A DNA stretch of 64,000 nucleotides, taken from the NCBI RefSeq assembly GCF_000426645.1, contig NZ_AUFT01000006.1, positions 310,001-374,000 on the forward strand, in the 5' to 3' direction. The position numbers and the translations under genes were made by a program. Positions 45,476-64,000 of this stretch are shown here, piece after piece (position 1 is the stretch's first letter; each line of letters opens with the position of its first letter). The notes under the pieces were generated by a model that saw only the letters and a list, made by a program, of their open reading frames with translations, was not told the DNA's origin and made no database searches. The DNA is from Nakamurella lactea DSM 19367. GTDB lineage: Bacteria > Actinomycetota > Actinomycetes > Mycobacteriales > Nakamurellaceae.

Positions 45476-46705
45476 GTGACCGCCGACCGCCGGGTGTTGT
45501 GGCTCGACGCCACCGCCGGGGTGGCCGGCGACATGTTGCTGGCCGCGCTGGTCGACCTCGGGGTCCGGCTGCCCGGCATCCAGGCCGCCGTCGACGCGGT
45601 GATCCCGGGCACCGTACTGCTCCGGCAGCGCGAGGTGAGCCGGGCCGGACTCCGGGCACTGAAGGTCGACGTCGAGTTGGTGGCCACCGATCAGCACCAC
45701 CGGAGCTGGCGGGAGATCCGGAATCGGATCGTCGCGGCCGAACTGACCGAGGGCGCGCGGGCGAACGCCCTGGCCGCGTTCGGTGCGCTGGCCGCCGCCG
45801 AGGGGCGGGTGCACGGAGTCGCGGCCGACGACGTGCACTTCCACGAGGTCGGGGCCTGGGACTCGATCGCGGACCTGGTGGGCAGTTGCGCGGCGCTCGA
45901 CTCGCTCGGGGCGGACCGGGTGACGGTCAGCGAGATCGCCCTCGGCTCGGGCACCGTTCGCGCCGCTCACGGCGTGCTCCCGGTGCCGGTGCCGGCGGTC
46001 ACCGAACTGATCGCCGGCTGGTCGGTGACCTCCGGCGGCGACGGCGAGCTCGCCACCCCGACCGGAGTGGCGCTGCTGACCACCCTCGCGGCCGGTACCG
46101 GGCCGCTGCCCGCAATGACGGTGCAGCGGGTCGGCGTCGGCGCCGGCAGCCGGGATCGACCCGATCGCCCCAACGTGGTCCGCGCGGTACTGGGAACCTC
46201 GGCGGCGACCGCACCGGCCGCCGGCACGACCCGGTTGACGATGCTGGAGACCACGGTCGACGATCTCGACCCGCGGCTGTGGCCGTCGGTGCTCGACGCG
46301 CTGCTGGCCGCCGGCGCCGCCGACGCCTGGCTGACGCCGGTGCTGATGAAGAAGGGCCGGCCGGGCCAGGTGCTCTCGGTGCTGGCCGAACCGGCGCTCG
46401 CACCGGCGCTGCAGCAGATCGTGCTGGCCCGCACCTCGACGCTGGGGGTACGCAGCTTCGGAGTACAGCGCACCGCTCTGGACCGTTGCTACCTCGATGT
46501 CGAACTGGCCGGCGGGACGGTCGCGGTGAAGATCGGCCACCGCGACGGGGTGGTGCTGCATGCCACCGCCGAGTATTCCGACGCCGCGGCCGCCGCCGAC
46601 GCGACCGGCCGCACCGTCGCCGATGTGCTGGCCGAGGCCGAGGCCGGGGCCAGGGCCGCCGGCGTGGTCCCGGGTGCCGGCCTGCCACCCGGGGTCAGGA
46701 ATTAG
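45476..46705 (+). CDS. larC: LarC, nickel insertion enzyme for the nickel-pincer cofactor
   Basis: 409 residues. The opening LWLDATAGVAGDMLLAALVD, the metal-ligand histidines in DVHFHEVGAWDSIADLVG, and ATPTGVALLTTLA identify LarC. The CTP-dependent cyclometallase inserts nickel into the dithiocarboxylated precursor. In Lactiplantibacillus LarC is made by a frameshift from two ORFs; here one frame suffices. GTG 45476 is the first start at the conserved sequence. It converges on larB with a four-base overlap. Confidence 0.93.
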   Translation: MTADRRVLWLDATAGVAGDMLLAALVDLGVRLPGIQAAVDAVIPGTVLLRQREVSRAGLRALKVDVELVATDQHHRSWREIRNRIVAAELTEGARANALAAFGALAAAEGRVHGVAADDVHFHEVGAWDSIADLVGSCAALDSLGADRVTVSEIALGSGTVRAAHGVLPVPVPAVTELIAGWSVTSGGDGELATPTGVALLTTLAAGTGPLPAMTVQRVGVGAGSRDRPDRPNVVRAVLGTSAATAPAAGTTRLTMLETTVDDLDPRLWPSVLDALLAAGAADAWLTPVLMKKGRPGQVLSVLAEPALAPALQQIVLARTSTLGVRSFGVQRTALDRCYLDVELAGGTVAVKIGHRDGVVLHATAEYSDAAAAADATGRTVADVLAEAEAGARAAGVVPGAGLPPGVRN

Positions 46706-47436
46706 CCCACCGGTTCCTCCGCCGGGCCTCCGGCAGCTTCGAACGGTGCCGCGATCTGAGCAGCCAGATGCCCTGCGCCGTAACCGTTGTCGATATTCAC
46801 CACACCGACCCCGGGCGCGCAGGCATTGAGCATGGTGAGCAGCGGCGCCAGCCCATCGAAGGCCGCGCCGTAGCCCACCGAGGTCGGCACCGCGACCAGC
46901 GGCGCACTCACCAAACCGGCCACCACCCCCGGCAGCGCGCCGTCCATCCCGGCGACCACCACGATCACCCTGGCCGCGCGCAGCCGCTCAAGGTGCTTGG
47001 TGAGCCGGTGCAGCCCGGCCACACCGACGTCGACCACCAGTTCGGTCGCCCGGCCGAGGTAGCGGGCGGTCAGCTCGGCCTCCCTGGCGACCGGCAGGTC
47101 GGACGTCCCGGCAGACAGCACCAGCACCGTTCCGCCGGTGGCCGGTGGGGGTTCCGGTGGCCAGGCGAGTAGTCGAGAGGTGGTGTCGTGCAGGGCATCC
47201 GGCAGCTCGGCGAGGACAGCGGCGGCATGTTGCGGGCCGGCCCGGGTGAACAAGGTGACGCCGGTCGCCCGACGGCCCTGCGGCCCGGCTGATCTGGCGG
47301 CGACAACTGCGGCGATCGCACCGACCTGCTCGGCGGTCTTGCCTTCGCAGTAGATCGCTTCCGGGTAGCCGCGCCGCCGCATCCGATCGACGTCCAGATC
47401 GGCGATCCCGGTCAATGGGTCCGGATCGTCAGCCAT
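46702..47436 (-). CDS. larB: LarB, pyridinium-3,5-biscarboxylate synthase
   Basis: 244 residues. The C-terminal PurE-like domain (about 100-235) carries VLSAGTSDLPVAREAELTA, VVVAGMDGALPGVVAGLV and PTSVGYGAAFDGLA; the N-terminal RRRGYPEAIYCEGKT motif is typical. LarB carboxylates and hydrolyses nicotinate adenine dinucleotide, the first step of nickel-pincer nucleotide synthesis. Its start overlaps the larE end by eight bases. Confidence 0.94.
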   Translation of the reverse strand: MADDPDPLTGIADLDVDRMRRRGYPEAIYCEGKTAEQVGAIAAVVAARSAGPQGRRATGVTLFTRAGPQHAAAVLAELPDALHDTTSRLLAWPPEPPPATGGTVLVLSAGTSDLPVAREAELTARYLGRATELVVDVGVAGLHRLTKHLERLRAARVIVVVAGMDGALPGVVAGLVSAPLVAVPTSVGYGAAFDGLAPLLTMLNACAPGVGVVNIDNGYGAGHLAAQIAAPFEAAGGPAEEPVG

Positions 47437-48289
47437 GGTTCACGGTGACCAAAGGCAGGGTGAACGCGCCCGACTGGATGCCGGCCAGGTCCAGTGCCAC
47501 GAAACGGAATCCGGCCGCCCGGACCGCGGCGAGCAGCTGGGTCCGCAGCGGATCGGCGGTGGCCGGGGCCAGGTCGGCCGACGGCAGTTCCAGCCGGGCG
47601 ATGTCGCCGTGGTGTCGCACCCGGCAGTCGGCGAACCCGAGGGCCCGGACGCCGGCCTCGGCCCGCTCGATCTGCCCGAGTTTGATCGGGTCGACGCTCT
47701 CGTGGTGCGGGATCCGGGAGGCCAGGCAGGGAGCGGCCGGTTTGTCGGCGCACGGCAGCCGCAGCGCGCGGGCCAGCGCCCGCACTCCTACCTTGTCGAT
47801 CCCCGCCTCGGCCAGCGGCCGGAGCACCCCGTGCTCGGTCGCGGCCAACGCGCCCGGACGATCCGGGCGGATCACGTCATCGGCGTTCTCGCCGTAGGCA
47901 ACGGCCGAAAGGCGCTGTTGGACAACGAGTTCGTCATCGATCCTGGTGAACAACTCGTTCTTGCAGTGGTAGCAGCGGTCCGGCCCGTTGGCCCGGTACG
48001 CGGGGTTCGAGCCCTCGTCGGTGAGCACCTCGACCACCGGCGCCCCGATGAACGCCGCCACCTGGTGCGCCGCCGCCCGCTCGTCCGCGGCCAGGCTCGG
48101 TGAGACGCCGAGGACGGCGATCACCCGCTCGGCGCCGAGGGTCCGGACGGCCAGAGCCAGCAGCAGCGCGGAATCGACGCCGCCGGAGAACGCCACGCCG
48201 AGCCGGTCGACACCGGCCAACTGATCGGCGACCCTCTCCGCAGCCGCCCGCTGTTCGCCGAGGTCCGCCGACGGGTCCATCCGTGTCAT
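47429..48289 (-). CDS. larE: LarE, sulfur-transfer enzyme for the nickel-pincer cofactor
   Basis: 286 residues. PP-loop ATPase motif LGVAFSGGVDSALLLALA (about residues 29-46), and NGPDRCYHCKNELF and KPAAPCLASRIPHHE with conserved cysteines. Two to three Cys at the LarE active site suggest either sacrificial or [4Fe-4S]-type sulfur transfer. It adenylates and thiolates the biscarboxylate. It starts 26 bases after the uidA stop with no terminator, so it reads as the second gene of a uidA-larE-larB operon. Start ATG 48289 is chosen; ATG 48280 is also possible. Confidence 0.94.
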   Translation of the reverse strand: MTRMDPSADLGEQRAAAERVADQLAGVDRLGVAFSGGVDSALLLALAVRTLGAERVIAVLGVSPSLAADERAAAHQVAAFIGAPVVEVLTDEGSNPAYRANGPDRCYHCKNELFTRIDDELVVQQRLSAVAYGENADDVIRPDRPGALAATEHGVLRPLAEAGIDKVGVRALARALRLPCADKPAAPCLASRIPHHESVDPIKLGQIERAEAGVRALGFADCRVRHHGDIARLELPSADLAPATADPLRTQLLAAVRAAGFRFVALDLAGIQSGAFTLPLVTVNHG

Positions 48290-48315
48290 GGTGTCATCTT
48301 GCCCCGGCCGGGCGA

Positions 48316-51283
<2,968 letters not shown>

Positions 51284-51299
<16 letters not shown>

Positions 51300-52690
51300 A
51301 GCACCTCGCCGGCGCGGTGCACCACCAGGGTCTCCGGATCCGCTTCGTAGGCGGCGATGTCGATGCCCGCCGGGTCCAGGTAGCCGAGGTTCACCGAGTG
51401 GCATTCCTGCTCGGGGATGCCGGTGGCCAGGGTGACGTCCACCCGCAGCGTCTCCTGACCGGTCGCGGGGTCGTAGCTGCCGGCGCCGCGAAGGTGGGTG
51501 GAATGGGCCAGCACTCCCCAGTGCACGCCGGAGAAGCGGTCCCACTGTTTCACGAAGTAGTCGCGACAGTGGTAGCCGACGTCGTGGATCTGCGGATGGC
51601 TGGAGGCGATCTCGGTGATGTGCGGGGCGTACAGGATCACCTCGCCGCCGTCGGCGACGATCGGCTCCACCTTGTAGAAACCCTTGGCGCCGGTCCAGAT
51701 CTCGTCGTACATCTCGGGAACGATGGACAACACCCGGCGCACCGGGCGGTCCAGATACTGCACGTGGGTCGCGGCGCAGACCTGCGCAGCGTCGGCCCAG
51801 CTGCTCAGCGTGCTGCCGAAGGACACCGAGTGCAGACCCGAACTGCGCGTTGCACTTCCGGCCGGTGCCCGCCCTGCCTCGGTACCGGCCGCGGCAATCC
51901 GGTGCCCGCCGATCCCGGCGTCGTCGTCCGCGCTGATCTCGGCGTCCGAGTCGGTGCTGTCGCTCTCCGCGGTGACGACGCAGAAGGCGATCTTCTCGGC
52001 CGGGATCAGGGCGGCGCCGTCGTTGATCAGGGCCCGCACCGGGGTGATGCCGGTGGTGCCGATGATCTCCGCCGAGGTGATCAGGGCGCCGAGCCAATGC
52101 GAGACGTCGATGATCTTCTGCCCGGCGACGCCGGGGAAGAAGTACTTGTTACCGCCGGAGATACCGACCACTTCGTGCGGCAGCACCGGCCCGAGCACCA
52201 GCGCGACGTCGTGCTCCACCACCGCCCGGTTCAGCAGCACCTGCACCTCCGCGCTCATCCGACCCTCGGACAACTCGGCGATGCGGGCGGCAGAAATCGT
52301 GCCGAGGTCGGCGAACGTCTCCGGCTTCCACCACTCGTGATTGATCACGGTGGTGCCCGGATAGGAGTCCTGGAGGTGTCCTGCCCGGTAGCCGAGATGG
52401 ACGGCCAGTGCCTGCTCGCTCATCGCGGCATGGGTGCCGAGGGCGACCAGCACGGTGATCCTGGACGCACGGCCGTAAAGCGCACCGTGCACGGCCCGCA
52501 GCAGCAGCGGCATCGGACAGTTCCGGGTCCCGTCCGGGACCAGCACGCAGACGCTGCGTCCGTCAAGGTCGTGACCCGCGAGCTGCCCGGCGACGAACTC
52601 CGTCACCTCGGCCTCGGTGAGCTGCCCGGTCGGTCCGCCGAGGCGGACGGCAAGGTCCGTCGGGTCCCCGGTGTCGGTGATGGTCGTCAT
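51284..52690 (-). CDS. larA: LarA-family nickel-pincer racemase/epimerase, likely sugar-acid epimerase
   Basis: 468 residues. It keeps the LarA catalytic set: VPDGTR (Asp53, Arg56), GTHAAM (His87), PHEVVGISGGNKYFFPG (His172; Lys182, which links the pincer) and DVSHWL (His198), plus GAKGF (counterpart of Lys298). The spacing of His172, Lys182 and His198 equals that of His174, Lys184 and His200 in L. plantarum LarA. A unique insertion of about 45 residues (280-325, acidic then Ala/Gly/Ser) precedes the C-terminal domain. Among hexuronate genes, its likely role is C2 epimerisation of an aldonate, D-mannonate to D-gluconate; lactate racemase is an alternative. Start ATG 52690 follows GGTGGAG. Confidence 0.85.
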
Positions 52691-52866
52691 CGCTCCACCC
52701 TGCGCCACCGCCGCCGCGGCGGCAAGCCATGGTCCCGTCGCCGACCCGGTCGGTCCGGGCGGCCGCGAGTTCCGCGCCGGGCGATGAGTTCGGCACTCCG
52801 GCGTGGTCCTCCTGTGCTGTGATGCCTTCGTTCCGATCACAGCCACCCGATAACCATGGAGTCGCC

Positions 52867-53505
52867 ATGCCCCGCACCCGGGTCCACAACCTGAACATCT
52901 CCCTCGACGGCTATGCGGCCGGCGAACAGGTGACGCTCGACGCCCCGATCGGCGGCGCCGAAGGCCTGTTCGGTTGGTTCGACGGCCGGGTGATCCATGG
53001 GGTGGACAAGGCGGACGCGCCGATCACCCTCGATCGTGCGCTGATCAGCCTGTGGGGTCAGGGGGTCGGCGCCGAAATCATGGGGCGGCGGAAGTTCGGC
53101 CCGCAGGTCGGGGAATGGCCGGACGACGGATGGCGGGGTTGGTGGGGCGACGAACCGCCTTTCCACACACCGGTTTTCGTCATGACGCATCATCCGCACC
53201 CGCAGATCGACTTCCCCAACGGGACCAGCTTCCGGTTCGTCGACGGCTCGCCGCAGGAGGTCCTGCGGCTGGCCAGGGAGGCGGCGGGCGGTCCCGACGT
53301 CCGGCTCGGCGGCGGGCCGTCGACCGTGCGGCAGTTCCTGCAGGCCGACCTGGTCGACTTCATGCACCTGACCGTCGTGCCGATCACCCTGGGCCGCGGC
53401 GTCTCCCTCTGGGACGGAACGCGCGATCTGCAGGACCGCTTCAGCATCGAGTCGGTCACCGCACCCAACGGCGTCACCCATCAGCTCTGGAACCGCAAGG
53501 TCTAG
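52867..53505 (+). CDS. RibD C-terminal/dihydrofolate reductase-like protein
   Basis: 212 residues. The fold shows NLNISLDGYAAG (substrate strand), MGRRKFGPQVGEW, FVMTHH and the NADPH loop RLGGGPSTVRQFLQADLVD. Such proteins reduce pteridine-like or other heterocycles; exact substrate unknown. GGAG precedes ATG 52867. It stands between larA and uxaC1 but shows no clear tie to hexuronate use. Confidence 0.88.
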   Translation: MPRTRVHNLNISLDGYAAGEQVTLDAPIGGAEGLFGWFDGRVIHGVDKADAPITLDRALISLWGQGVGAEIMGRRKFGPQVGEWPDDGWRGWWGDEPPFHTPVFVMTHHPHPQIDFPNGTSFRFVDGSPQEVLRLAREAAGGPDVRLGGGPSTVRQFLQADLVDFMHLTVVPITLGRGVSLWDGTRDLQDRFSIESVTAPNGVTHQLWNRKV

Positions 53506-53542
53506 GCCCGCGCGGTCCCGCGTCCCGCGATTCGGCCGCCGA

Positions 53543-53563
53543 CAACTCATGGCAACCATGCTG
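53543..53563 (+). promoter_or_regulatory. LacI-type operator upstream of uxaC1
   Basis: CAAC-TCAT-GGCAAC-CAT, then GCTG in place of TTGC. The 18-base stretch CGACAACTCATGGCAACC is identical to the one upstream of the ABC operon (61957). It lies 33 bases before the uxaC1 start. Confidence 0.65.
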
Positions 53564-53595
53564 GTGTCGGGGGTGCTCGCCGCGAGGATGGCGGT

Positions 53596-55014
53596 ATGAG
53601 CACCGACGCCTCGTTGAGCGTGCATCCGGATCGACTGTTTCCGGCCGATCCCGGCACCAGGGACATCGCCCGGCGGATCTACGCCGGCATCGCCGACCTC
53701 CCGATCATCTCGCCGCACGGGCATGTCCCGCCGCAGTGGCTGGCGGACGATACCCCGTTCACCGACCCCACGTCCTTGTTGATCTCACCGGATCATTACG
53801 TCACCCGGCTGCTGCACGCGGCCGGTGTCCCGCTGACCGCTCTCGGCGTCGATCGCAAGCCGCTCACCGAGGAACAGTCGCGGCGGGCCTGGCGGTTGTT
53901 CTGTTCACACTGGCCGCTCTATCGGGGCACCCCGGTCAGGTTCTGGATGGAAAGCGTGCTGCACGACATCTTCGGCGTCGCGACGCGGCCGTCCGCGGCG
54001 ACCTCGGACGCGATCTACGACACCATCGCCGCGGCGCTGGCCTCCGACGAGTTCCGGCCGCGGGCGTTGATGCGCAGGTTCGGCATCTCCGTGCTGGCCA
54101 CCACCGACGACCCCAGCGACGACCTCGCCGAGCACACCCGGCTTCGGGACGACCCCGACTTCACGCCACGGGTGCTACCCACCTTCCGGCCGGACAAGTA
54201 CCTGGAGCCGGCCGGCCGGCGCTGGCCGGACCTGCTGGACACATTGGCGGCGGCGTCCGGCATCGACACCTGCGACTACCCGGGATTCATTGCCGCGCTG
54301 GAGAACCGGCGCCGCTACTTCGTCGAGCACGGCGCTGTCTCCGCCGATCACAGCCATGCCGACGCGGTGACCCTGACCCTTGAGGAGGCCGAGGCGAGCC
54401 GGATCTTCACCGCCGCCCGCGCCGGTATCGCGACCGAGGCGGAGGCGACCGCGCTGCGTCGGCATCTGCTGGTGGAGATGGCCAGGATGTCGGTCGAGGA
54501 CGGCCTGGTGATGACGCTGCATCCCGGCGTGTTCCGCAACCATCACGCTCCGACCGCGCAGCAGTTCGGGCCCGACACCGGACACGACATCCCGGTCGCC
54601 GGCGAGTACACCAGCGGTCTGCGGCACCTGCTGGACCGGTTCGGCACCGCCGAGGGATTCCACCTGGTGCTGTTCACCCTGGACGAGGCGACGCTGTCCC
54701 GGGAGATCGCGCCGCTGGCCGGCTTCTACCCCAGCGTCTACATCGGCGCGCCGTGGTGGTTCCTGGACGCGCCGGAGGCCGCCAGGCGGTTCCGCGGCGC
54801 GGTGACCGAGACCGCCGGATTCTCCCGCACCTCGGGGTTCATCGACGACACCCGGGCATTCTGTTCGATCCCGGCCCGACACGACATGGCCCGCCGGGTC
54901 GACAGCGGCTACCTGGCCGAACTCGTTGTGTCCCACCGGCTCGACCTGGACGAGGCGATCGAGACAGCGGCCGACCTGGTGCTGGCCCAACCACGAAAGG
55001 CGTTCAAACTATGA
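53596..55014 (+). CDS. uxaC: Glucuronate isomerase (uronate isomerase)
   Basis: 472 residues of the amidohydrolase superfamily (UxaC usually about 470). It converts D-glucuronate to D-fructuronate and D-galacturonate to D-tagaturonate. Metal/active-site motifs are SPHGHVPP (metal His pair), ISVLATTDDPSDDL, DYPGFIAALENRRRYFVEHGA, TLHPGVFRNH and WFLDAPEA; FIDDTRAFCSIPARHDMARR is near the C-terminus. GAGGA precedes ATG 53596. It is first in the operon uxaC1-uxuB1-gntK, with ATGA overlaps. Confidence 0.96.
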   Translation: MSTDASLSVHPDRLFPADPGTRDIARRIYAGIADLPIISPHGHVPPQWLADDTPFTDPTSLLISPDHYVTRLLHAAGVPLTALGVDRKPLTEEQSRRAWRLFCSHWPLYRGTPVRFWMESVLHDIFGVATRPSAATSDAIYDTIAAALASDEFRPRALMRRFGISVLATTDDPSDDLAEHTRLRDDPDFTPRVLPTFRPDKYLEPAGRRWPDLLDTLAAASGIDTCDYPGFIAALENRRRYFVEHGAVSADHSHADAVTLTLEEAEASRIFTAARAGIATEAEATALRRHLLVEMARMSVEDGLVMTLHPGVFRNHHAPTAQQFGPDTGHDIPVAGEYTSGLRHLLDRFGTAEGFHLVLFTLDEATLSREIAPLAGFYPSVYIGAPWWFLDAPEAARRFRGAVTETAGFSRTSGFIDDTRAFCSIPARHDMARRVDSGYLAELVVSHRLDLDEAIETAADLVLAQPRKAFKL

Positions 55015-56396
55015 CGTTGACGTCGCTGTCCCGGGCCCGGGACGGGCGGCCGGCGGCCCCGGTGCGGATGGTGCACCTGGGTCTGGGCAACTTCTTCCGG
55101 GCGCACCAGGCTTACTACACCGAGATCGCTTCCGACGCCGCCGACTGGGGCTATCTCGCGTTCACCGGACGTAGCGCGGTTGGCCCGCTGCGGGCGCAGG
55201 ACGGTCTGTACACGCTGCTGGTGCGCGGCGCCGATGCCGACCGGCCGATGGTGGTCTCGGCCTTGTCGGAGGTCGGCGTGTCCACCGACATCTCGGCCTG
55301 GCGCAACGCTTTCCGACTGCCCGCCCTGGCGCTGGTGACCCTCACGGTGACCGAGGCCGGGTACTGCCGGAACGCCGACGGCGGTCTGGACACCGCTGAC
55401 GGCGACGTCGCCGCCGACATCGCGGCGCTGCGGGTCGCCGGGCTGACGGCGAACGTGAGCACGGTGCCCGGCAAGCTCGTGCTCGGCCTGTTGCACCGCC
55501 GCGACGCCGGGCTGACGCCGATCACCCTGGTGCCCTGCGACAACGTGCCGGGCAACGGCTCGATGGTCGCCCGGGTGGTCAACGAGCTGGCCGAGCTGGT
55601 CGACGACGGCCTGCCCGGATGGATCGAGCAGAACGTCGGTTTCGTCACCACGATGGTGGATCGGATCACCCCAAGGGCGGTGCCGGCCGACCGGGCAGAT
55701 CTATTGGCGGCCACCGGCATCGACGATCCGGAGTGCGTGGTCACCGAGCCGTTCACCGAATGGGTGCTCAGCGGCGAGTTCGCGGCCGGCCACCCGGACT
55801 GGGCCGGCGCCGGCGCCCGGTTCGTCGACGACATCGAACCCTGGGAGCACCGCAAGCTGTGGCTGCTCAACGGATCCCACTCGCTACTGGCCTACGCGGC
55901 GAGCATCCGCGGCGCCGAGACGGTGGCCGAGGCGATCGCCGATCCGGTGGTCCGCGGGTGGGTCGACCAGTGGTGGGACGATGCGGCGCGGCAGCTACCG
56001 TTGCCGGCCGCCGAGATCGCGGACTACCGCGCGGCTCTGCTGCAGCGTTACGCGAACCCACGGATCAGGCATCTGCTCGCGCAGATCGCCGCCGACGGCT
56101 CGCAGAAGGTTCCGATCCGGATCCTGCCGACCCTTCTCGGCGAGCTGGCGCAGGGCCGGATCGCCGGTGGTGCAACCAGAGTGATCGCCGCCTGGGTGCT
56201 ACACCTACGCGGCCTCGGGGCGCCGGTCAGTGACCGCGGCGCGACCCAGCTGCAGAACGAGGTGGTCGAACACGACCTGCCGGGCGCGGTCCGCACGGTG
56301 TTGTCGTTCCTCGGGGTAGAGGACCAGCGGGTCACCGATGCGGTGATCGATCAGGCCGGGGAGCTGAGCAGCGCCCGACCGGCTGCGCCGGCATGA
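55011..56396 (+). CDS. uxuB: Mannitol dehydrogenase-family hexonate oxidoreductase (UxuB/UxaB type)
   Basis: 461 residues. N-terminal NAD-binding motif HLGLGNFFRAHQAYYTE; VTMVDRITPRAV; catalytic Lys and Asn in HRKLWLLNGSHSLLAYAA. It reduces fructuronate to D-mannonate, or tagaturonate to altronate. The start overlaps the uxaC1 stop, so it acts on the isomerase product. Whether it is UxuB or UxaB in specificity cannot be told from sequence; a paralogue lies at 57989. Confidence 0.9.
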   Translation: MTLTSLSRARDGRPAAPVRMVHLGLGNFFRAHQAYYTEIASDAADWGYLAFTGRSAVGPLRAQDGLYTLLVRGADADRPMVVSALSEVGVSTDISAWRNAFRLPALALVTLTVTEAGYCRNADGGLDTADGDVAADIAALRVAGLTANVSTVPGKLVLGLLHRRDAGLTPITLVPCDNVPGNGSMVARVVNELAELVDDGLPGWIEQNVGFVTTMVDRITPRAVPADRADLLAATGIDDPECVVTEPFTEWVLSGEFAAGHPDWAGAGARFVDDIEPWEHRKLWLLNGSHSLLAYAASIRGAETVAEAIADPVVRGWVDQWWDDAARQLPLPAAEIADYRAALLQRYANPRIRHLLAQIAADGSQKVPIRILPTLLGELAQGRIAGGATRVIAAWVLHLRGLGAPVSDRGATQLQNEVVEHDLPGAVRTVLSFLGVEDQRVTDAVIDQAGELSSARPAAPA

Positions 56397-57976
56397 GCGA
56401 CCGGCCGCGCGCGGTAGCCGGCCGTGGTGACGCCGCACCCCCGGCCGAGATCGTCATCGGGGTTGACGTCGGCACCACCGCCACCAAGGTGACCGCCTTC
56501 GGCGTCGGCTCTCGGTGGCGGCACACCGTGGTCCGGGAGTATCCGCTGCTGCACCCGCAGGACGGATGGGAGATACAGCAGCCAGAGGTGATCCTGGCCG
56601 CCGCGCTCGGCGCGATCGCCGAAAGCGTCTCCCGCGGCGGGGCGTCCCGGGTGATCGCGGTGTCGTTGAGTGCCGCGATGCACGGCCTGATCGGCCTCGA
56701 CACCGATCTGCGGCCGCTGACGCCGCTGCTCACCTGGGCCGATTCCCGAGCGACGGACATCGCGCGCCGGCTGCGCGCAGAAGGGCTCGCAGCCGAGCTG
56801 CACCACCGTTCCGGGACGCCCGTGCATCCGATGTCCCCACTGACCAAGCTGATCTGGTTCGCCGAGCACGAACCTGAGCTCTCCGGCCGGGTGCGCGCCT
56901 GGGTCGGCCTGAAGGACTGGATCGTGCAGGCCCTCACCGGTACGCAGGCCACCGAACTGTCCAGCGCCAGTGGTACCGGCCTGCTCGACCTGAACACCCG
57001 CAGCTGGTCGCCGGAAACTCTTGCCATGGTCGGGGTTTCCGCAGAGCAGCTGCCGATCATCCTGCCGACGACCGCGGCCCTGGGGCTCACCAGGGCGGTT
57101 GCCCCACGGGTCGGGTTGCCAACAGCGACGCCAGTGGTGCTCGGCGCCGGTGACGGCCCGTCCGGCAACCTCGGCACCGGCGCCCTGCGCCCGGGTGTCG
57201 CCGGCCTGAGCATCGGCACCAGCGGTGCAGTGCGCACCGTCGTTCCGGAGCCGTACGTCGATCCCGGCGGCCGGCTGTTCTGCTATGCCCTCACCGACGA
57301 TGCCTGGACCATCGGTGGCGCGATCAGCAACGGCGGTGCGACCCAGCGATGGGCCGGCGAGGTGTTCGGCCGGCCGGACAGCGGCGCCGATTCCTCGACC
57401 GACGAACAGACCTTGGCATTGGCCGCGACCGTTCCGGCCGGCAGCGACGGACTGCTCGCGCTGCCGTTCCTGATGGCCGAGCGGGCACCGCTGTGGGACC
57501 CGACGGTAGCCGGCGCCTTCCTCGGAGTCCGAAGCCGGCACACCCGTGGCCATTTCGTCCGCGCGGCAGTGGAAGGCGTTGCGCTGCAACTGTCGGTCAT
57601 CGTCGATGAGCTCGACGCGGTGCACCCGATCGACTCCGTTCGGGCCACCGGCGGCGTCTTCCGCTCGGACCTGTGGCGCACCGTACTGGCCGGTGTGCTG
57701 GACCGACCGATCGTCGTGGCCGACGGCGCCGAGGGATCGGCGAGGGGCGCCGCGGCGCTCGGCCTGATCGGCATCGGGCGCGCCGCCTCGTTCGACAGCG
57801 CGTTGGCTCTGCTGCCGGGTCCGGACACCGGAACGGACCGGCTCACCAATCCGGACCCCGCCCTGGCGGACACCTATCGGCGGGTCCGCGCCGATTTCCC
57901 GCGGTTGCTGTCCGACCTCGGGCGGGTCGCCGAACTGTTCCGGCCGGCCGCGCCGGTGCCGGCGCGATCCGGGTGA
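56393..57976 (+). CDS. gntK: FGGY-family carbohydrate kinase, gluconokinase type
   Basis: 527 residues. Phosphate motif IGVDVGTTATKVTAF; SLSAAMHGLIGLD; LTWADSRATD; GTPVHPMSPLTKLIWF, a gluconate-kinase (Bacillus GntK type) signature; C-terminal ATP motif GTSGAVR and RATGGVFRSDLW. It probably phosphorylates D-gluconate to 6-phosphogluconate. It overlaps the uxuB1 stop and is the last gene of the operon. A gluconate kinase here makes sense only if gluconate arises from mannonate, which fits the LarA homologue. Xylulose kinase-like activity is a less likely alternative. Confidence 0.85.
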   Translation: MSDRPRAVAGRGDAAPPAEIVIGVDVGTTATKVTAFGVGSRWRHTVVREYPLLHPQDGWEIQQPEVILAAALGAIAESVSRGGASRVIAVSLSAAMHGLIGLDTDLRPLTPLLTWADSRATDIARRLRAEGLAAELHHRSGTPVHPMSPLTKLIWFAEHEPELSGRVRAWVGLKDWIVQALTGTQATELSSASGTGLLDLNTRSWSPETLAMVGVSAEQLPIILPTTAALGLTRAVAPRVGLPTATPVVLGAGDGPSGNLGTGALRPGVAGLSIGTSGAVRTVVPEPYVDPGGRLFCYALTDDAWTIGGAISNGGATQRWAGEVFGRPDSGADSSTDEQTLALAATVPAGSDGLLALPFLMAERAPLWDPTVAGAFLGVRSRHTRGHFVRAAVEGVALQLSVIVDELDAVHPIDSVRATGGVFRSDLWRTVLAGVLDRPIVVADGAEGSARGAAALGLIGIGRAASFDSALALLPGPDTGTDRLTNPDPALADTYRRVRADFPRLLSDLGRVAELFRPAAPVPARSG

Positions 57977-57988
57977 CGTCGCCGGTGC

Positions 57989-59365
57989 CTACTGCCGCGC
58001 GAGTTCCTCCGCATGGGCGACCACCGTTGCCACCACGGTGGCGTCGGCACCGACCGCCGGGTCCAGCCGGTCCAGGATCCTGGTGACTGCGTCGTGCAAG
58101 GGGCCGGCGGCCAGCTCCACCAGTCGGGCCGCGTGCGGGTCGGTCACCCCTCCGGTCCCGCCGCGGAGCTGAACCACCCAGGCCGCCAGAATTCTGGTGG
58201 CGGCGATCGGGATCCGGCCGGCGGCCCGTTCCAGCGCCAGCACCGGGAGCACCCTGATCGGCAGCTTCTGCGAACCGTCGGCGGCGATCTGCGCCAGCAG
58301 GTGCCGGATACTCCGGTTGGCGAATCTCTCCGTCAGGGCGTCGGTGTAGCGCGTCAGCTCGGCGGACGGAAAGGGCAGGTGTGTCAATGCCTCTGCCCAC
58401 CACTGCTGCACCCAGTCGCGGCAGGCATCGTCGGCCATCGCCTCGGAAACGGTGACGTGCCCTCTGATCGAGCCCTCGTAGGCGAGCAGTGAGTGCGCGC
58501 CGTTCAACAACCACAACTTGCGCCGCTCGAACGGCCCTACGTCGTCGACGAACTCGGTGCCGACCGCGTCCCACCGCGGCCGGCCGGCCGGGAAGTCGCC
58601 ACACAGGACCCACTCGCTGAACGGCTCGGTGATCACCGGGCAGGTGTCGGTCCGGCCTGTCGCCGCCGCGACCTCCGCGCTGTCGGCGGCGGTGCCACGC
58701 GGGGTGATCCGGTCGACCATGCTGGTGACGAAGCTGACCGATTCACCGATCCACCGGGCGAGCGCCGGTTCCAACAGCTCGGCCGCCGAGCCGACGACCT
58801 GCCGCACCACACTTCCGTTGTCGGCCAGATTGTCGCAGGGAATCACGGTGATCGGGCCGGCATCGGCCCGGCGTCGCGCGGCCAGCCCGGCGACGAGACG
58901 CCCCGGGACAGTGGTGACGGCTGCCGTCGGGTCCGCCCGCAGTCTCTCGAGGTCGGACAGCACCCCGGGGTCGCCGCGATCGAGGTCGCCGTCGGCACCG
59001 CGTCGGTAGCCTGCCTCGGTCACGGTGAGCGTCAGCGCCCTGGTGCTGGGCGCGGCCAGAACCGTTGACCAGGCGTCGTTATCCGCTGCCGGGCGGGCCA
59101 GACTGACGCTGGAGACGACGTCGAACCGGTTCCCGGTCGCTGCTTTGGTGACGAGCGTGTAGAGGCCGTCCTGCGCCGTCATCCGATCGGCCAGTGCGGC
59201 GCTGCGGCCGGTGAACGCCGCAATCCCCCACTCCGCGGCGTCCGGTGCCAGGCCGGTGTACCAGGCCTGATGGGCCCGGAAGAAGTTGCCGAGACCGAGG
59301 TGGGCGATGCCGACCGGCGCGGCCGGCGACCCGGCACACCTGGCCAAGGGTTGCGGGTTGCTCAC
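57989..59365 (-). CDS. uxuB: Mannitol dehydrogenase-family hexonate oxidoreductase, second copy
   Basis: 458 residues. Same motifs as the copy at 55011 (HLGLGNFFRAHQAWYT, TSMVDRITPRG, RRKLWLLNGAHSLLAYEG), but clearly diverged. Its start overlaps the second uxaC stop by four bases, and it ends 12 bases from the convergent gntK stop. It may serve the galacturonate branch (tagaturonate/altronate) while the other copy serves glucuronate, or the reverse. Confidence 0.9.
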   Translation of the reverse strand: MSNPQPLARCAGSPAAPVGIAHLGLGNFFRAHQAWYTGLAPDAAEWGIAAFTGRSAALADRMTAQDGLYTLVTKAATGNRFDVVSSVSLARPAADNDAWSTVLAAPSTRALTLTVTEAGYRRGADGDLDRGDPGVLSDLERLRADPTAAVTTVPGRLVAGLAARRRADAGPITVIPCDNLADNGSVVRQVVGSAAELLEPALARWIGESVSFVTSMVDRITPRGTAADSAEVAAATGRTDTCPVITEPFSEWVLCGDFPAGRPRWDAVGTEFVDDVGPFERRKLWLLNGAHSLLAYEGSIRGHVTVSEAMADDACRDWVQQWWAEALTHLPFPSAELTRYTDALTERFANRSIRHLLAQIAADGSQKLPIRVLPVLALERAAGRIPIAATRILAAWVVQLRGGTGGVTDPHAARLVELAAGPLHDAVTRILDRLDPAVGADATVVATVVAHAEELARQ

Positions 59366-60783
59366 AACTTGAATACCCGGCGTGGGTTCTCGGCGACCAG
59401 ATCGTGCGCTATGCGGCGCGCCTCGTCCTCACCCACGCGGTGTTCGGCGACCAGGCCGGCCAGGTAGCCGCAGTCCAGCCGGCGAGCCATGTCGTGCCGG
59501 GCCGGGATCGAGCAGAACGCCCTGGTGTCGTCGATGAACCCCGAGGTGCGGGTGAATCCGGCTGTCTCGGTGACCGCCGCCCGGAACCGACGGATGGCGT
59601 CCGGTGCATCCAGGAACCACCAGGGCACACCGAGATAGACGCTCGGGAAGAACCCGGCCAGCGGCGCGAGTTCCCGGGACCAGACGGTCTCGTCGAGGGT
59701 GAACAACACCAGATGCAGGTTGGGATGGTTGCCGTAGCGCTCCAGCAGCGGCCGGATTGCCCGGGTGTACTCGGTCGCGACCGGAATGTCGTGGCCGCGG
59801 TCCGGGCCGAACCGGGCGGCGAGCCCGGACTCGTAGTCGCGCAGTGCCCCCGGGTGGACGGTCATCACCAGTCCGTCGTCGCACGACATCCGGGCCATCT
59901 CCAGCAACATGTTGCGGCGGAACGCATCTGCCTCGGCAGCGGTGACCGATCCGGCCAGTGCGGATCGATAGATCCTGCTTGCCTCCGCGGTGCTCAGCGG
60001 ATCGGTACGGGGGTCGATGTGGCCGTGATCGGCCGAGACCGCACCGTGCTCCACGAAGTAGCGCCGCCGGTTCTCCAACGCCGCCAGGTAGCCCTGGTAG
60101 TCACCGGTGTCCAGGTCCGCGGCCCGGCCCAGTCCGTCCTGGGCCGCTGCCCAGCCCGGTCGTGCAGGGTCCAGGTATCGATCGGGCCGGAAGGTCGGCA
60201 GCACCCTGGCCTCGAACGTCGGATCGGCGGCCAGCGCAGCGTGCGCCGACAGATCGTCGACCGGGTCGTCCGTGGTGGCCAGCACCGAGATGCCGAACCG
60301 GGCGAACAGTGCCCGTGGCCGGAACTCCGGCTGCTGCAGTCGATCTGCTATCTGTTCGTAGATCGCATCGGCGTTGGCCGCGCACGGTTCATCGATGATC
60401 CCGAAGATCCCCGACAACTCCGATTCCAGCCAGTACCTGACCGGGGTGCCGGCAAACACCGACCAGTTGTCGCACAGCCGGTGCCAGACGGCCCGGGCGC
60501 GATCCGGCGCCAGCGGCTGGCCACCGATGCCGAGTTCCGGCAGGGTGACGCCGCTGGCGTGCAGCAGCCGGGTGACGTAGTGATCCGGGGTCACTAGCAG
60601 TTCCGCCGGATTGGGAAACAGCTCGTCGTCCAACAGCACCCTGGCATCGACGTGACCGTGCGGGGAAATGATCGGCAACTCCCGGACACCGTCGTACAGC
60701 TCGCGCGCCAGCCGCCGGATCCCGGGATCCGGCGGCAGCAGTCGGTCCGGATGGGGCATCAGCGGCGCGGTGTCGGCGGGCAT
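59362..60783 (-). CDS. uxaC: Glucuronate isomerase, second copy
   Basis: 473 residues. Motifs SPHGHVDARV, ISVLATTDDPVDDLSAHA, LENRRRYFVEHGAVSADHGH, VHPGALRDYE, PWWFLDAPDA and FIDDTRAFCSIPARHDMARR match the first copy, with divergence elsewhere. ATG 60783 is chosen; ATG 60819 would put the start inside the operator. It is the first gene of a two-gene operon with the second reductase, and probably has its own promoter just downstream of the second lacI gene. Confidence 0.94.
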   Translation of the reverse strand: MPADTAPLMPHPDRLLPPDPGIRRLARELYDGVRELPIISPHGHVDARVLLDDELFPNPAELLVTPDHYVTRLLHASGVTLPELGIGGQPLAPDRARAVWHRLCDNWSVFAGTPVRYWLESELSGIFGIIDEPCAANADAIYEQIADRLQQPEFRPRALFARFGISVLATTDDPVDDLSAHAALAADPTFEARVLPTFRPDRYLDPARPGWAAAQDGLGRAADLDTGDYQGYLAALENRRRYFVEHGAVSADHGHIDPRTDPLSTAEASRIYRSALAGSVTAAEADAFRRNMLLEMARMSCDDGLVMTVHPGALRDYESGLAARFGPDRGHDIPVATEYTRAIRPLLERYGNHPNLHLVLFTLDETVWSRELAPLAGFFPSVYLGVPWWFLDAPDAIRRFRAAVTETAGFTRTSGFIDDTRAFCSIPARHDMARRLDCGYLAGLVAEHRVGEDEARRIAHDLVAENPRRVFKL

Positions 60784-60815
60784 AGCCGCACTGTTCAGGG
60801 TGACGGCATTCGGTG

Positions 60816-60836
60816 GCAATCGGTTGCCGTCAGTTG
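60816..60836 (-). promoter_or_regulatory. LacI-type operator upstream of uxaC2
   Basis: On the minus strand: CAAC-TGAC-GGCAAC-CGA-TTGC, followed by CAC as in the site at 61960. It lies 32-53 bases before ATG 60783 and just beyond the lacI2 stop (60854). Confidence 0.7.
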
Positions 60837-60853: not shown

Positions 60854-61912
60854 CTAACCGCCCGCGGTCGATCCCGAACGGAATGCCGCGGCGGTGCGCC
60901 GCCGCCGGAACGGCCCCGTCGAGCCGCGGATCACCAGCCGGGTCGGCAACATCACCGGATCACCGGTCTGCGGTGGCGCGCCACCGATGGTCGCCACCAG
61001 TTGCCGCACGGCCGTCGCCCCCAACGTCTGCAGCGGCGAGGCGACGGTCGTCAGCCCCGGGGTGACGAGTTCGGTGCCGAAGATGTTGTCGAACCCGATC
61101 ACGCTGACGTCGGCCGGAACCTTCGCGCCCAGCGCCGCCAGGCCCTGCAGGAATCCCAGCGCCACCATGTCGTTGTAGGCGATCACCGCACCGGCCGGCT
61201 GTGTCCGGAACTGTTCCACCGCAGTCACTCCGCCGGCAACCGTCGGCGGATGCGGCCCGATCCGGTGCACCTTCAGACCGCGCTCGGCGGCGATCTCCCG
61301 CAACGCCTGCCAACGCACGCTGTCGGCCCAGGCGGCCTCCGGCCCGGCGACGTAGGTCATCGAGGTGTGGCCGAGTTCGGTCAGATGGGCGACGGCTTCG
61401 CGCATCCCGTGGCGATGGTCGGTCACCACGCAGGGCAGCCCCACCACCACTCTGTTCAACACGATCAGCGGGCGTAGCCTGGCCATCTTTCGGATCGCCG
61501 AGTCCGACATCCGGGTGCTGGTCAGCACAATGCCGTCAACCATGCCGATGGACCGGTCCAGCGCCTCGCGTTCCAGCCGATCGGATTCCTGGGCGTTCGC
61601 CAACAGCATGGTGTACCCGGCGTCGATCGCCGCCGCCTGCGCGCCCCGAATGATGCCGAAGTAGTAGGGATTGGTGATGTCGGCGATGGCCAGCGCGATC
61701 ACCGAGGTCCGCCCGGTGAGCAGAGCACGGGCGAGCGGATTGGTCCGGTAGCCCATGTCCGAGGCGATTTTCCGGATCCGGGCGGCAGTTTCCGCGTTGA
61801 CCCGTCCGGGACGGGAGAATGCCCTCGACACTGTCGAAACGGCCACCCCGGCGGCGCGCGCCACGTCGTAGATCGTCGGCGGCCGTTGATCGCCGTTCCG
61901 CTGTTCGACCAC
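60854..61912 (-). CDS. LacI-family regulator, second copy (hexuronate regulon)
   Basis: 352 residues. Helix-turn-helix TIYDVARAAGVAVSTVSRAF with RPGRVNAETAARI, then the effector domain (YNDMVALGFLQGL, VSVIGFDNIFGTELVTPGLTT). GTG 61912 follows a GAGGTG site. It is divergent from the ABC operon and upstream of uxaC2. Its recognition helix is close to that of the regulator at 50280, so both may bind the shared operators, possibly answering different effectors. Confidence 0.93.
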   Translation of the reverse strand: MVEQRNGDQRPPTIYDVARAAGVAVSTVSRAFSRPGRVNAETAARIRKIASDMGYRTNPLARALLTGRTSVIALAIADITNPYYFGIIRGAQAAAIDAGYTMLLANAQESDRLEREALDRSIGMVDGIVLTSTRMSDSAIRKMARLRPLIVLNRVVVGLPCVVTDHRHGMREAVAHLTELGHTSMTYVAGPEAAWADSVRWQALREIAAERGLKVHRIGPHPPTVAGGVTAVEQFRTQPAGAVIAYNDMVALGFLQGLAALGAKVPADVSVIGFDNIFGTELVTPGLTTVASPLQTLGATAVRQLVATIGGAPPQTGDPVMLPTRLVIRGSTGPFRRRRTAAAFRSGSTAGG

Positions 61913-61959
61913 AGGTCACCTCGTCGTTGAAGCCGAGTTCCCGACGATAGGCCGCGCGA

Positions 61960-61980
61960 CAACTCATGGCAACCGCTTGC
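61960..61980 (+). promoter_or_regulatory. LacI-type operator upstream of the ABC importer operon
   Basis: CAAC-TCAT-GGCAAC-CGC-TTGC. The inner part TGGCAACCGCTTGCCA (61967-61982) is a perfect palindrome with 6-bp arms and the best of the four copies. It lies in the divergent region between lacI2 and the binding-protein gene. Confidence 0.75.
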
Positions 61981-62096
61981 CACTTGCTGGACCGGGCTGC
62001 CTGAATGACTGAATTCACGGCGGACGGGGCCGGATCCAGACCGGACCGCCAAGACACGACCACCAAGACACGACCACCAAGACAAAGGAGTCAGGA

Positions 62097-63320
62097 ATGT
62101 CGAGACCATCACGCCTGCCCGTGGCACTCGTCGCCGGCGCGAGCGCGTTCGCCCTGCTGGTCAGCGCCTGCGGAGCACCGTCATCCGGGGCAGACCAGGC
62201 CACCGGGAGCGTCAACGCGACCGAAGTGCCGGACAAGCCGAGCGCACCGGTCACGCTGAACATCCTGGACATCGCCGGCAACCTGCAGCTGACCAAGGGG
62301 ATGATCGAGAACTTCAAGGCAGCCAACCCGGACATCGTCAAGGAGGTCACCTACACCACCGGCCAGGCGCCGGCGATGACCGGCAAGCTCAAGGCCGAAC
62401 AGCAGGGCGGCGCGGTCACCACCAGCCTGGTACTCAGCGGCACCGACGGTTTGGCTGCCGGCGTCGAGAACGACCTGCTAACCGAGCTCACCCCCGCCTT
62501 CGACAGCCGTTTCCCGGGGCTGATGGACAACTACCTCGAGCCGGCGGCCAACATGCAGAAACTGGCTGCCGGGCACGGCATCGAAGTCGTCTACTACCCG
62601 TCCGGCCCACTGCTGGAATACAACCCGGACAAGGTGTCGGCGCCGCCGAAGACGCCCGCGGCGCTGCTCGAGTACGCCAAGGCGAACCCTGGGAAGGTCC
62701 AGTACGCCAACCCGGCCAACTCCGGTCCCGGCCGGACCTTCCTGATGGGCCTGCCGTATCTGCTCGGTGACACCGATCCGAAAGATCCGGACAAGGGCTG
62801 GGACAAGACCTGGGCATTCCTGCAGGAGCTCGGCAAGTACACCGCGAACTACCCGTCCGGAACCACCGAGACGATGAAGAACCTGGCATCCGGCGCGGTC
62901 GACATCGTGGCGTCGACCACCGGCTGGGACATCAATCCGCGGGTGCTCGGTACCGTTCCGAACACCGTGAAGGTCAGCGCTTTCGACAACATGCACTGGG
63001 TCAGTGATGCGCAGTACGCGCTGATCCCGAAGGGCGTGTCGAACGACGTCCTGGCCGCCGACCTCGCGCTGATCGCCTGGATGCTCAAGCCGGACCAGCA
63101 GGCGATCGCCTACGACAAGGGCTACTTCTACCCCGGCCCGGCCGTCAAGGACGTGACGATCGAGATGGCACCGCAGGAGAGCCAGGATGTGCTCAAGGAG
63201 TTCGGCCGCGCCGAATACGCGGACTGGATCAAGAACTTCCCGGTGGAAACGTCGCTGCCCGCCAAGCAACAGGTCGCGGCCTTCGACAAATGGAACCGAC
63301 TCGTCGGCAGCCAGAAGTAG
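62097..63320 (+). CDS. ABC transporter substrate-binding lipoprotein
   Basis: 407 residues. Signal peptide with lipobox LLVSAC (Cys25); then a two-lobed binding protein of the Fe3+/polyamine/thiamine-like class (YYPSGPLLEYNPDKVSAPPKTPAALLEYAKAN). GGAG precedes ATG 62097. Operator and neighbours suggest the cargo is a hexuronate or hexuronide, unusual for this class; polyamine or another small anion cannot be excluded. It is followed by an ATPase gene 28 bases on. Confidence 0.92.
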   Translation: MSRPSRLPVALVAGASAFALLVSACGAPSSGADQATGSVNATEVPDKPSAPVTLNILDIAGNLQLTKGMIENFKAANPDIVKEVTYTTGQAPAMTGKLKAEQQGGAVTTSLVLSGTDGLAAGVENDLLTELTPAFDSRFPGLMDNYLEPAANMQKLAAGHGIEVVYYPSGPLLEYNPDKVSAPPKTPAALLEYAKANPGKVQYANPANSGPGRTFLMGLPYLLGDTDPKDPDKGWDKTWAFLQELGKYTANYPSGTTETMKNLASGAVDIVASTTGWDINPRVLGTVPNTVKVSAFDNMHWVSDAQYALIPKGVSNDVLAADLALIAWMLKPDQQAIAYDKGYFYPGPAVKDVTIEMAPQESQDVLKEFGRAEYADWIKNFPVETSLPAKQQVAAFDKWNRLVGSQK

Positions 63321-63348: not shown

Positions 63349-64000
63349 ATGACGGACAACCACTTCCGCGAACTCAGACTCGACGGCGTCAGCCGCGCCT
63401 ACGGTTCGCAGAATGCCCTGAACGACCTGAACCTGACCATCTCGGGACAGGAGTTCATCGCACTGCTCGGTCCGAGTGGCTGCGGCAAGTCCACCGCGCT
63501 GAACTGCATCGCCGGGCTGCTGCCACTCACCGGAGGATCGATCTACCTGGACGACAGGCGGATCGACACCCTCCCACCCGAACAGCGTGGGTTCGGCATG
63601 GTCTTCCAGAACTACGCGCTCTTCCCGCACATGTCGGTCCGCAAGAACATCGGCTTCGGGCTGAAGATGCACAAGGTACCGAAGGCCGAGGCCGCCAAGC
63701 GGGTGGATGAGGCCGTGGCACTGGTGCAGTTGCAGGAGCATCAGCACAAGGCGCCGGGTCAGCTGTCCGGAGGGCAGCAGCAGCGAGTGGCGATCGCTCG
63801 CGCTGTTGCCCTCCACCCGCCGCTGGTGCTGATGGACGAACCGTTGTCGAACCTGGACGCGCAGCTCCGGCTCGAGATGCGGATGGAAATCCGTCGGCTG
63901 CACCAGAACCTGGGTCTGACGACGGTCTATGTCACCCACGACCAGGAAGAGGCGCTGTCGATGGCCGATCGGCTGGTCGTGCTGCGGCTGGGCGTGATGC
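63349..64000 (+). CDS. ABC transporter ATP-binding protein (PotA-like), partial
   Basis: Open to the window end (217 codons). Motifs of the PotA/UgpC class: Walker A LLGPSGCGKSTALNC, FQNYALFPHMSV, signature LSGGQQQRVAIARAV, Walker B LVLMDEPLSNLDAQLR and VTHDQEEALSMADR. It pairs with the binding protein upstream; the permease genes should lie beyond the window. GGAAGG precedes ATG 63349 at about 10 bases. The C-terminal regulatory domain is cut off. Confidence 0.95.
   Translation, partial: MTDNHFRELRLDGVSRAYGSQNALNDLNLTISGQEFIALLGPSGCGKSTALNCIAGLLPLTGGSIYLDDRRIDTLPPEQRGFGMVFQNYALFPHMSVRKNIGFGLKMHKVPKAEAAKRVDEAVALVQLQEHQHKAPGQLSGGQQQRVAIARAVALHPPLVLMDEPLSNLDAQLRLEMRMEIRRLHQNLGLTTVYVTHDQEEALSMADRLVVLRLGVM

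Follow-up and report, generated by a model that had tools for sequence, protein, structure and literature searches.

A probable nickel-pincer epimerase route from glucuronides to 6-phosphogluconate in a gene cluster of Nakamurella lactea

The window analysed here is a 64,000-nucleotide stretch of the Nakamurella lactea DSM 19367 genome (5.82 Mb in 27 contigs), covering positions 310001-374000 of contig NZ_AUFT01000006.1, hereafter C4. It contains a cluster in which a homologue of LarA lies among genes for nickel-pincer nucleotide (NPN) cofactor synthesis, a beta-glucuronidase, putative uronate isomerases and reductases and a gluconokinase-like FGGY kinase, and we consider it probable that the main task of this homologue is to convert mannonate to gluconate for the pentose phosphate route. 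Gene boundaries were taken from a codon-score gene call and families from Pfam and NCBIfam scans, in which some genes (larC, larE, uidA, the LarA homologue and uxuB1) were scored on open reading frames (ORFs) longer than the called gene. The genes of the cluster, with their principal matches, are as follows.

45476..46705, plus strand: larC, nickel insertion, NPN cofactor biosynthesis (Pfam Ni_insertion 418.9 bits; NCBIfam LarC1 200.2, cut-off 90; LarC2 124.6, cut-off 50)
46702..47436, minus strand: larB, NPN cofactor biosynthesis (NCBIfam LarB 264.1, cut-off 175)
47429..48280, minus strand: larE, sulfur transferase of NPN synthesis (TIGR00268 265.3, cut-off 150, on ORF 47429-48733; PDB LarE match 5.2e-35)
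48316..50202, minus strand: uidA, beta-glucuronidase of glycoside hydrolase family GH2 (NCBIfam beta-glucuronidase 882.9 bits, cut-off 544, on ORF 48316-50259)
50280..51299, plus strand: lacI1, LacI-family regulator (Pfam LacI, Peripla_BP_3)
51284..52690, minus strand: LarA homologue, GntE-type, predicted D-mannonate/D-gluconate 2-epimerase (Pfam Lar_N 69.4 bits, on ORF to 52846; PDB 4NAR 3.1e-64; Foldseek 4NAR TMt 0.90)
52867..53505, plus strand: RibD_C (dihydrofolate-reductase-like) gene between larA and uxaC1 (Pfam RibD_C 44.7 bits)
53596..55014, plus strand: uxaC1, uronate isomerase (NCBIfam glucuronate isomerase 549.2, cut-off 387; PDB 2Q01 5.9e-137)
55011..56396, plus strand: uxuB1, mannitol-dehydrogenase-family reductase, probably fructuronate reductase (Pfam, on ORF 54753-56396; NCBIfam fructuronate reductase 231.9, under the cut-off of 603)
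56393..57976, plus strand: FGGY kinase, gluconokinase-like (best PDB match gluconate kinase 3GBT, 9.1e-86; TIGR01314 363.1, under the cut-off of 648.55)
57989..59365, minus strand: uxuB2, paralogue of uxuB1 (54% identical, blastp; Pfam)
59362..60783, minus strand: uxaC2, paralogue of uxaC1 (63% identical, blastp; Pfam UxaC 255 bits)
60854..61912, minus strand: lacI2, LacI-family regulator (51% identical to lacI1, blastp; Pfam)
62121..63320, plus strand: extracellular solute-binding protein of an ATP-binding cassette (ABC) transporter (Pfam SBP_bac_8)
63349..64000, plus strand: ABC transporter ATPase, running beyond the window end (Pfam ABC_tran)

At the level of families, these matches confirm the gene content that the original prediction, made from the sequence alone, had read at 45476-57976: larB, larC, larE, a LarA-family gene, uidA, uxaC, a uxuB-like gene and an FGGY kinase. 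Curated NCBIfam cut-offs are passed by larB, larC, larE, uidA and uxaC1. Two permease genes (Pfam BPD_transp_1, locus L009) follow the ABC ATPase outside the window. The cluster holds two uxaC/uxuB pairs (53596-60783) and two lacI genes, perhaps serving two uronates, and several Paractinoplanes genomes that carry the same larA clade likewise have two UxaC genes. LarE has a CxxC motif and further cysteines, recalling the iron-sulfur type of LarE; one of these cysteines adjoins what we take to be the position of the sacrificial cysteine of Lactobacillus plantarum LarE.

Among PDB sequences the LarA homologue matches 4NAR first, with lactate racemases next at 3.7e-06 or worse. An AlphaFold2 model built on 51 aligned sequences, those of the query and of 50 of its 57 relatives (predicted local distance difference test score, pLDDT, 89.4), likewise placed 4NAR at the top of a Foldseek search (E 3.3e-43, 31% identity), with a broad-range racemase behind it (TMt 0.75, 17-19% identity). 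According to PMC7583248, 4NAR is GntE2 of Thermotoga maritima, a D-mannonate to D-gluconate epimerase. The NPN-binding residues R56, K182 and H198 and the catalytic residues D53, H87, H172 and K336, mapped through a phmmer alignment to 4NAR and the residue numbers of PMC7583248 (D53 and H87 by motif reading), are identical in all 51 aligned sequences, although the search patterns used to collect the relatives contained D53, R56 and H198, which biases the set toward their conservation. At four specificity positions, 50 of the 51 sequences carry E173, V174, A395 and H396, with L070 as the exception and with the match of A-H to W358/T359 of LarA being a reading of the 4NAR alignment; PMC11770544 gives E-V-A-H as the GntE signature. 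On account of the weaker sequence and fold matches and the differing signature we reject a lactate or malate racemase. Both sequence and modelled fold make the protein look like a GntE-type mannonate/gluconate 2-epimerase. In this respect the idea of a C2-epimerase beside a gluconate kinase, put forward in the original prediction, is upheld by the 4NAR match, the residues, the fold and the 3GBT-like kinase; its substrate and direction, like the flux in this organism, are inferred.

We propose that the cluster works in the following way. The ABC transporter probably imports a glucuronide or a uronate, UidA would free glucuronate, UxaC would isomerise it to fructuronate and the UxuB-like reductase would reduce fructuronate to D-mannonate. 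LarB, LarC and LarE would make the nickel-pincer cofactor, and the LarA homologue, once loaded with it, would epimerise D-mannonate at C2 to D-gluconate. The FGGY kinase would then phosphorylate D-gluconate to 6-phosphogluconate for decarboxylation by 6-phosphogluconate dehydrogenase (Gnd), whose gene we find elsewhere in the genome. LacI-type repressors, probably reading the palindrome TGGCAAnnnnTTGCCA, would control much of the gene set. The specificities of the transporter, the reductase and the kinase, and the binding of the repressors, are likewise inferred. The mannonate/gluconate reaction has been shown in vitro for the relatives GntE1, GntE2 and LarAH15 (PMC7583248, PMC11770544).

These three enzymes act on free mannonate, which speaks against a reversed order of the last two steps, in which the kinase would phosphorylate mannonate and the LarA homologue would turn 6-phosphomannonate into 6-phosphogluconate. 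Such an order has been measured in extracts of Lactobacillus suebicus, which, like the scheme proposed here, diverts mannonate from the isomerase pathway to 6-phosphogluconate instead of to 2-keto-3-deoxygluconate (KDG), but in which phosphorylation precedes epimerisation and the genes are unknown according to PMC6978723. We judge the reversed order very unlikely for the window. The likelihoods that we attach to this and to the other alternatives discussed below overlap with that of the preferred reading and do not sum to one.

The neighbourhood of the LarA homologue recurs. A scan of a species-level genome collection returned 57 relatives. They span Actinomycetes, Chloroflexi, Spirochaetes, Hydrogenedentota and further groups, the closest being actinobacterial, and carriers of the larA clade include strains of Paractinoplanes, Kribbella, Knoellia and Cellulomonas. 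Together with 14 loci of a sample of the query's class these make 71 larA loci (loci and genome sets may share species), which we searched by tblastn; the queries were the genes of the window plus UxuA, KdgK-like and Eda sequences. The search found uxaC at 29 loci, uxuB and lacI at 23 each, larC and larE at 14 each, larB and uidA at 13 each, an FGGY kinase at 9 (7 at at least 42% identity and two only at 28-31%), a kdgK-like gene at 3 and eda at 1. With five UxuA queries and E 1e-6, uxuA was found at none of the 71 loci, an absence read against a single positive control independent of the queries' own loci (L116, recovered at 78%), against several loci that stop at contig ends and against many metagenome-assembled genomes of untold completeness. 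The gene of the LarA homologue lies together, and is probably co-regulated, with uronate genes and, in the window, also with the gluconokinase-like gene.

Compared with the canonical uxaC-uxuB-uxuA-kdgK-eda pathway, the window shares the first two enzymes. The closest point of comparison is L115, a locus of a UxuA-bearing genome, which has the same transporter (solute-binding protein 62%, ATPase 59%, permeases 68% and 75% identical), a lacI (39%) and a uxaC (55%). It differs in carrying uxuA and a kdgK-like kinase, which have no counterpart in the window, where larA and the FGGY kinase stand in their stead; neither of the latter has a match in the 16 kb read at L115.

Variations on the neighbourhood are also seen. 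The RibD_C/dihydrofolate-reductase-like gene (52867-53505) separates larA and uxaC1 in the window, whereas the two are adjacent and divergent in several relatives (for example L028, L101 and L104). Two Mycobacterium sp. loci (L014, L015) hold larC, larB, larE, uxuB and larA together, and because their genomes show no UxaC in our searches and no FGGY kinase match at E 1e-30, the epimerase there may serve a different input. In larA loci of other phyla (for example L042, L055, L058 and L064) a generic short-chain dehydrogenase/reductase query finds such a gene closely upstream of larA, where it perhaps replaces the UxuB-like reductase.

An operator-like palindrome recurs in the cluster. Allowing up to two mismatches, we find four TGGCAAnnnnTTGCCA sites in the window, all in intergenic regions of the cluster, where 0.6 are expected per 64 kb (10 Markov simulations). 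The sites and a related repeat, none of them assigned to a strand, are the following.

50225..50250: two overlapping operator-like sites (starts 50225 and 50235), with 2 mismatches each, between uidA and lacI1 (scan for the palindrome)
53541..53557: a stretch of 17 bases, upstream of uxaC1, repeated exactly at 61958-61974 in the operator region of lacI2 (positions counted from the sequence)
60814..60829: operator-like palindrome TGGCAATCGGTTGCCG between lacI2 and uxaC2 (same scan)
61967..61982: operator-like palindrome TGGCAACCGCTTGCCA between lacI2 and the transporter genes (same scan)

The motif was derived without recourse to 43 larA loci (29 named actinobacterial ones and 14 of the query's class). 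Of the 18 sites with at most one mismatch in these loci, 17 are found no more than 350 bp upstream of a cluster gene, a limit fixed after an earlier scan had shown sites in 25 of the 43. These sites fall between uxaC and larA, before uxaC, uidA and lacI and, in L110, before larE. The control loci L010-L013 and L115-L118 have no site (L009 overlaps the window, so its two sites are the window's own and no control), and the 28 larA loci of other phyla have one, near no cluster gene. By number alone the sites make a modest case: the first 12 loci have 4, and 60 shuffles of the motif gave 0.33 on average and at most 4. Their position is the stronger point. With sites ahead of larA/uxaC, uidA and, in L110, larE, their arrangement suggests joint induction of the epimerase and the glucuronidase and, in L110 at least, of cofactor synthesis as well.

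Genomes with this larA clade rarely have UxuA. A PF03786 search finds it in 4 of the 50 larA-carrier genomes searched (50 of the 57 loci taken) and in none of the 29 named actinobacterial ones, whereas UxaC is present in 39 of 51 carrier genomes, the query genome included, and in 26 of the same 29. Of 394 genomes in the class sample 54 have UxaC; among these UxuA occurs in 12 and the LarA clade in 15 (a sixteenth genome, with only a distant LarA homologue at 34% identity, was counted as without the clade); only the query genome combines the two. Apart from the query genome, 10 of the 14 larA genomes of the sample have UxaC on the larA contig, no more than ~6 kb away. FGGY kinases at least 46% identical to that of the window are found in 22 of 44 larA genomes, including the query's, the others having weaker matches or, in 6 genomes, none at E 1e-30.

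A number of observations weigh against the preferred reading. At the level of single proteins, the FGGY kinase and both UxuB-like reductases miss the cut-offs of the specific NCBIfam models, so that their substrates rest on context: uxuB2, like uxuB1, stays below NF011611 for fructuronate reductase (236.1) and also below the cut-off of a D-arabinitol dehydrogenase model (252.8), and for the kinase the FGGY gluconokinase model TIGR01314 is the best model matched even though its cut-off is not reached. The LarA homologue itself reaches 146.9 bits on NF052594, a nickel-dependent putative hexonate epimerase model that, by our reading of its name NPN_18_hexonate, represents LarA homologue (LarAH) group 18; the cut-off is 500, and the protein is therefore not assigned to it. 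Nor is the signature the whole story, since LarAH10, though no typical GntE, can also convert gluconate and mannonate into each other, if weakly (PMC11770544). In regulation, sites lie near a cluster gene in 10 of the 43 larA loci with none there in the other 33, and the window has no palindrome directly before larA.

A further point concerns GntE1 of Corynebacterium glutamicum, for which PMC7583248 reports a Michaelis constant (KM) of 120 mM for mannonate and doubts mannonate as the native substrate. This poor KM and the uronic-acid context of GntE1 would fit a LarA homologue that acts on a different acid of the uronate network, for example D-altronate/D-allonate made via the second uxaC/uxuB pair, since two such pairs could serve two uronates, or an aldarate (glucarate/mannarate), as suggested for GntE1 (PMC7583248). 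Yet E-V-A-H is the signature reported for enzymes shown to act on mannonate (PMC11770544), gluconate kinase is the solved structure that the adjacent kinase most resembles in sequence, and a distant LarA homologue is fused to a gluconokinase, so that we regard another acid as unlikely.

At the level of genomes, the contrast between larA and UxuA depends on the query genome: without it UxuA occurs in 0 of 14 larA genomes versus 11 of 39 others (Fisher one-sided p 0.022), with it in 1 of 15 versus 11 of 39 (one-sided p 0.085), and both values are optimistic since the genomes are related. UxuA is also missing in 28 of the 39 UxaC genomes without this larA. Moreover, 21 of the 44 larA genomes searched encode RspA/ManD-like enzymes at 57-67% identity (the query genome has a match at 35% only). 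This second family can include mannonate dehydratases, and the absence of UxuA is therefore not the absence of a dehydratase. UxuA absence as proof of a bypass is weakened on both of these counts.

The query genome itself is a case in point. The original prediction had found no mannonate or altronate dehydratase (UxuA, UxaA), KDG kinase or 2-keto-3-deoxy-6-phosphogluconate (KDPG) aldolase and had carbon entering the pentose phosphate route "instead of KDG". Within the window this absence stands for UxuA-, Eda- and KDG-kinase-like matches, all of which whole-genome searches put off C4 (UxaA was not searched for). Genome-wide it is ruled out, and the exclusion of KDG loses its support: the search of the rest of the genome that the prediction called for turned up candidate genes for UxuA, KDG kinase and Eda. 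Two UxuA-like genes lie on C5, at 107.9 kb and 340 kb, and in alignments both proteins retain the UxuA stretches HPDDPP, Cys, His and Asp-His. Eda matches lie on C13 and C5, and a kdgK-like PfkB kinase gene adjoins eda at C13:171-173 kb, being 37-39% identical to a kinase of L118 that is labelled kdgK by its position between uxuA and eda (from the gene call, with no Pfam scan of that kinase). Two weaker FGGY matches are also found elsewhere in the genome. Each of the divergent UxuA-like genes (L010:7936-9867 and L011:8730-10785, on C5, a contig without uxaC) stands beside a short-chain dehydrogenase gene.

Because UxuA-like, kdgK-like and eda genes exist elsewhere in the genome, a KDG route in trans is possible, and glucuronate might run mainly through it, with the epimerase only linking the mannonate and gluconate pools. 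One UxuA-like protein passes the broader mannonate dehydratase model NF003027 (208.2 vs 191), the kdgK-like gene adjoins eda, and T. maritima keeps both gntEK and kdgAK-uxuBA in its UxaR regulon (PMC3750489). Both UxuA-like proteins nevertheless stay under the TIGR00695 cut-off of 199.55 (150.8 and 109.7 bits) and share 29-32% identity with two UxuAs from other genomes that score highly, their genes lie on C5 whereas both UxaC genes lie on C4, and none of the 71 larA loci has uxuA. We hold a mainly KDG-based use of glucuronate to be improbable, and keep conversion of mannonate to gluconate as the preferred reading.

The route as such is not new. Rodionova et al. (2012) proposed conversion of mannonate to gluconate in T. 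maritima, at that time without experimental proof (as related in PMC6978723), and the activity of two LarA homologues was shown in 2020. The T. maritima operon gnd-uxaRED-gntEK, in the same regulon as kdgAK-uxuBA (PMC3750489), resembles the window in bringing together a fructuronate reductase, a LarA-type epimerase and a gluconate kinase for a proposed path from mannonate through gluconate to 6-phosphogluconate (PMC3750489, PMC6978723), and its epimerase is active in vitro (PMC7583248). It differs in its use of pectin and galacturonate, its UxaE and its GntR-type UxaR, and no lar cofactor genes are named in the operon as listed; in the window UidA and UxaC point to glucuronides as the source, regulation is by LacI-type proteins, and larB, larC and larE are in the cluster. 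The window epimerase is about 31% identical to the Thermotoga enzyme, GntE2 (LarAH20). According to PMC3750489, T. maritima did not grow when given glucuronate, galacturonate or gluconate, so its route has no growth proof either, a further point on the side of caution. Closer in lineage is the actinobacterial GntE1 (LarAH group 19), a LarA homologue that shows mannonate 2-epimerase activity and lies among uronic-acid genes; it is likened here by description rather than by sequence comparison, and its authors left its native substrate open (PMC7583248). Among the papers listed by searches of the open-access literature, with subscription papers mostly outside scope, we saw none that treats this pathway in actinomycete glucuronide clusters.

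A more distant parallel comes from marine gammaproteobacteria. On the Saccharobesus litoralis plasmid NZ_CP026605.1 (L124:7425-9194) a 589-residue protein joins a P-loop gluconokinase (3T61 2.4e-36, 1KNQ 9.8e-35) to a LarA domain (4NAR 6.7e-31), with larB, a tagaturonate epimerase gene, gnd and uxaC as neighbours. In Catenovulum adriaticum (L126:7486-9260) the same two parts are encoded by two genes with a one-base overlap, and uxaC, larB and larC are close by. The LarA domains of the two are 23-24% identical to the LarA homologue of the window. Only one record shows the fusion, and it hinges on a difference of two bases at the junction, so that an assembly error is possible; both records show the close pairing. 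The Saccharobesus litoralis strain does not grow on galacturonate according to PMC7953866, the main text of which does not contain the word racemase.

Taken more broadly, we suggest tentatively, and with slightly less than even confidence, that in many Actinomycetes the main glucuronide route may be dehydratase-free, with a nickel-pincer epimerase in place of UxuA and a gluconokinase in place of KDG kinase, that the nickel cofactor may be made on demand from genes in the same LacI-controlled regulon, and that marine gammaproteobacteria may have joined gluconokinase and epimerase in one protein. The cluster of the window adds a well-supported case to a route already proposed, and does not represent a new kind of biology. 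For the actinobacterial GntE1, PMC7583248 left open the role in vivo and the native substrate, and doubted mannonate; because of the cluster, the recurring palindrome and the exchange of uxuA for larA between otherwise similar loci, mannonate becomes the leading candidate for the clade studied here. If this reading is true, the use of glucuronate by these bacteria would be nickel-dependent and would yield pentose phosphate and NADPH, not pyruvate and glyceraldehyde phosphate.

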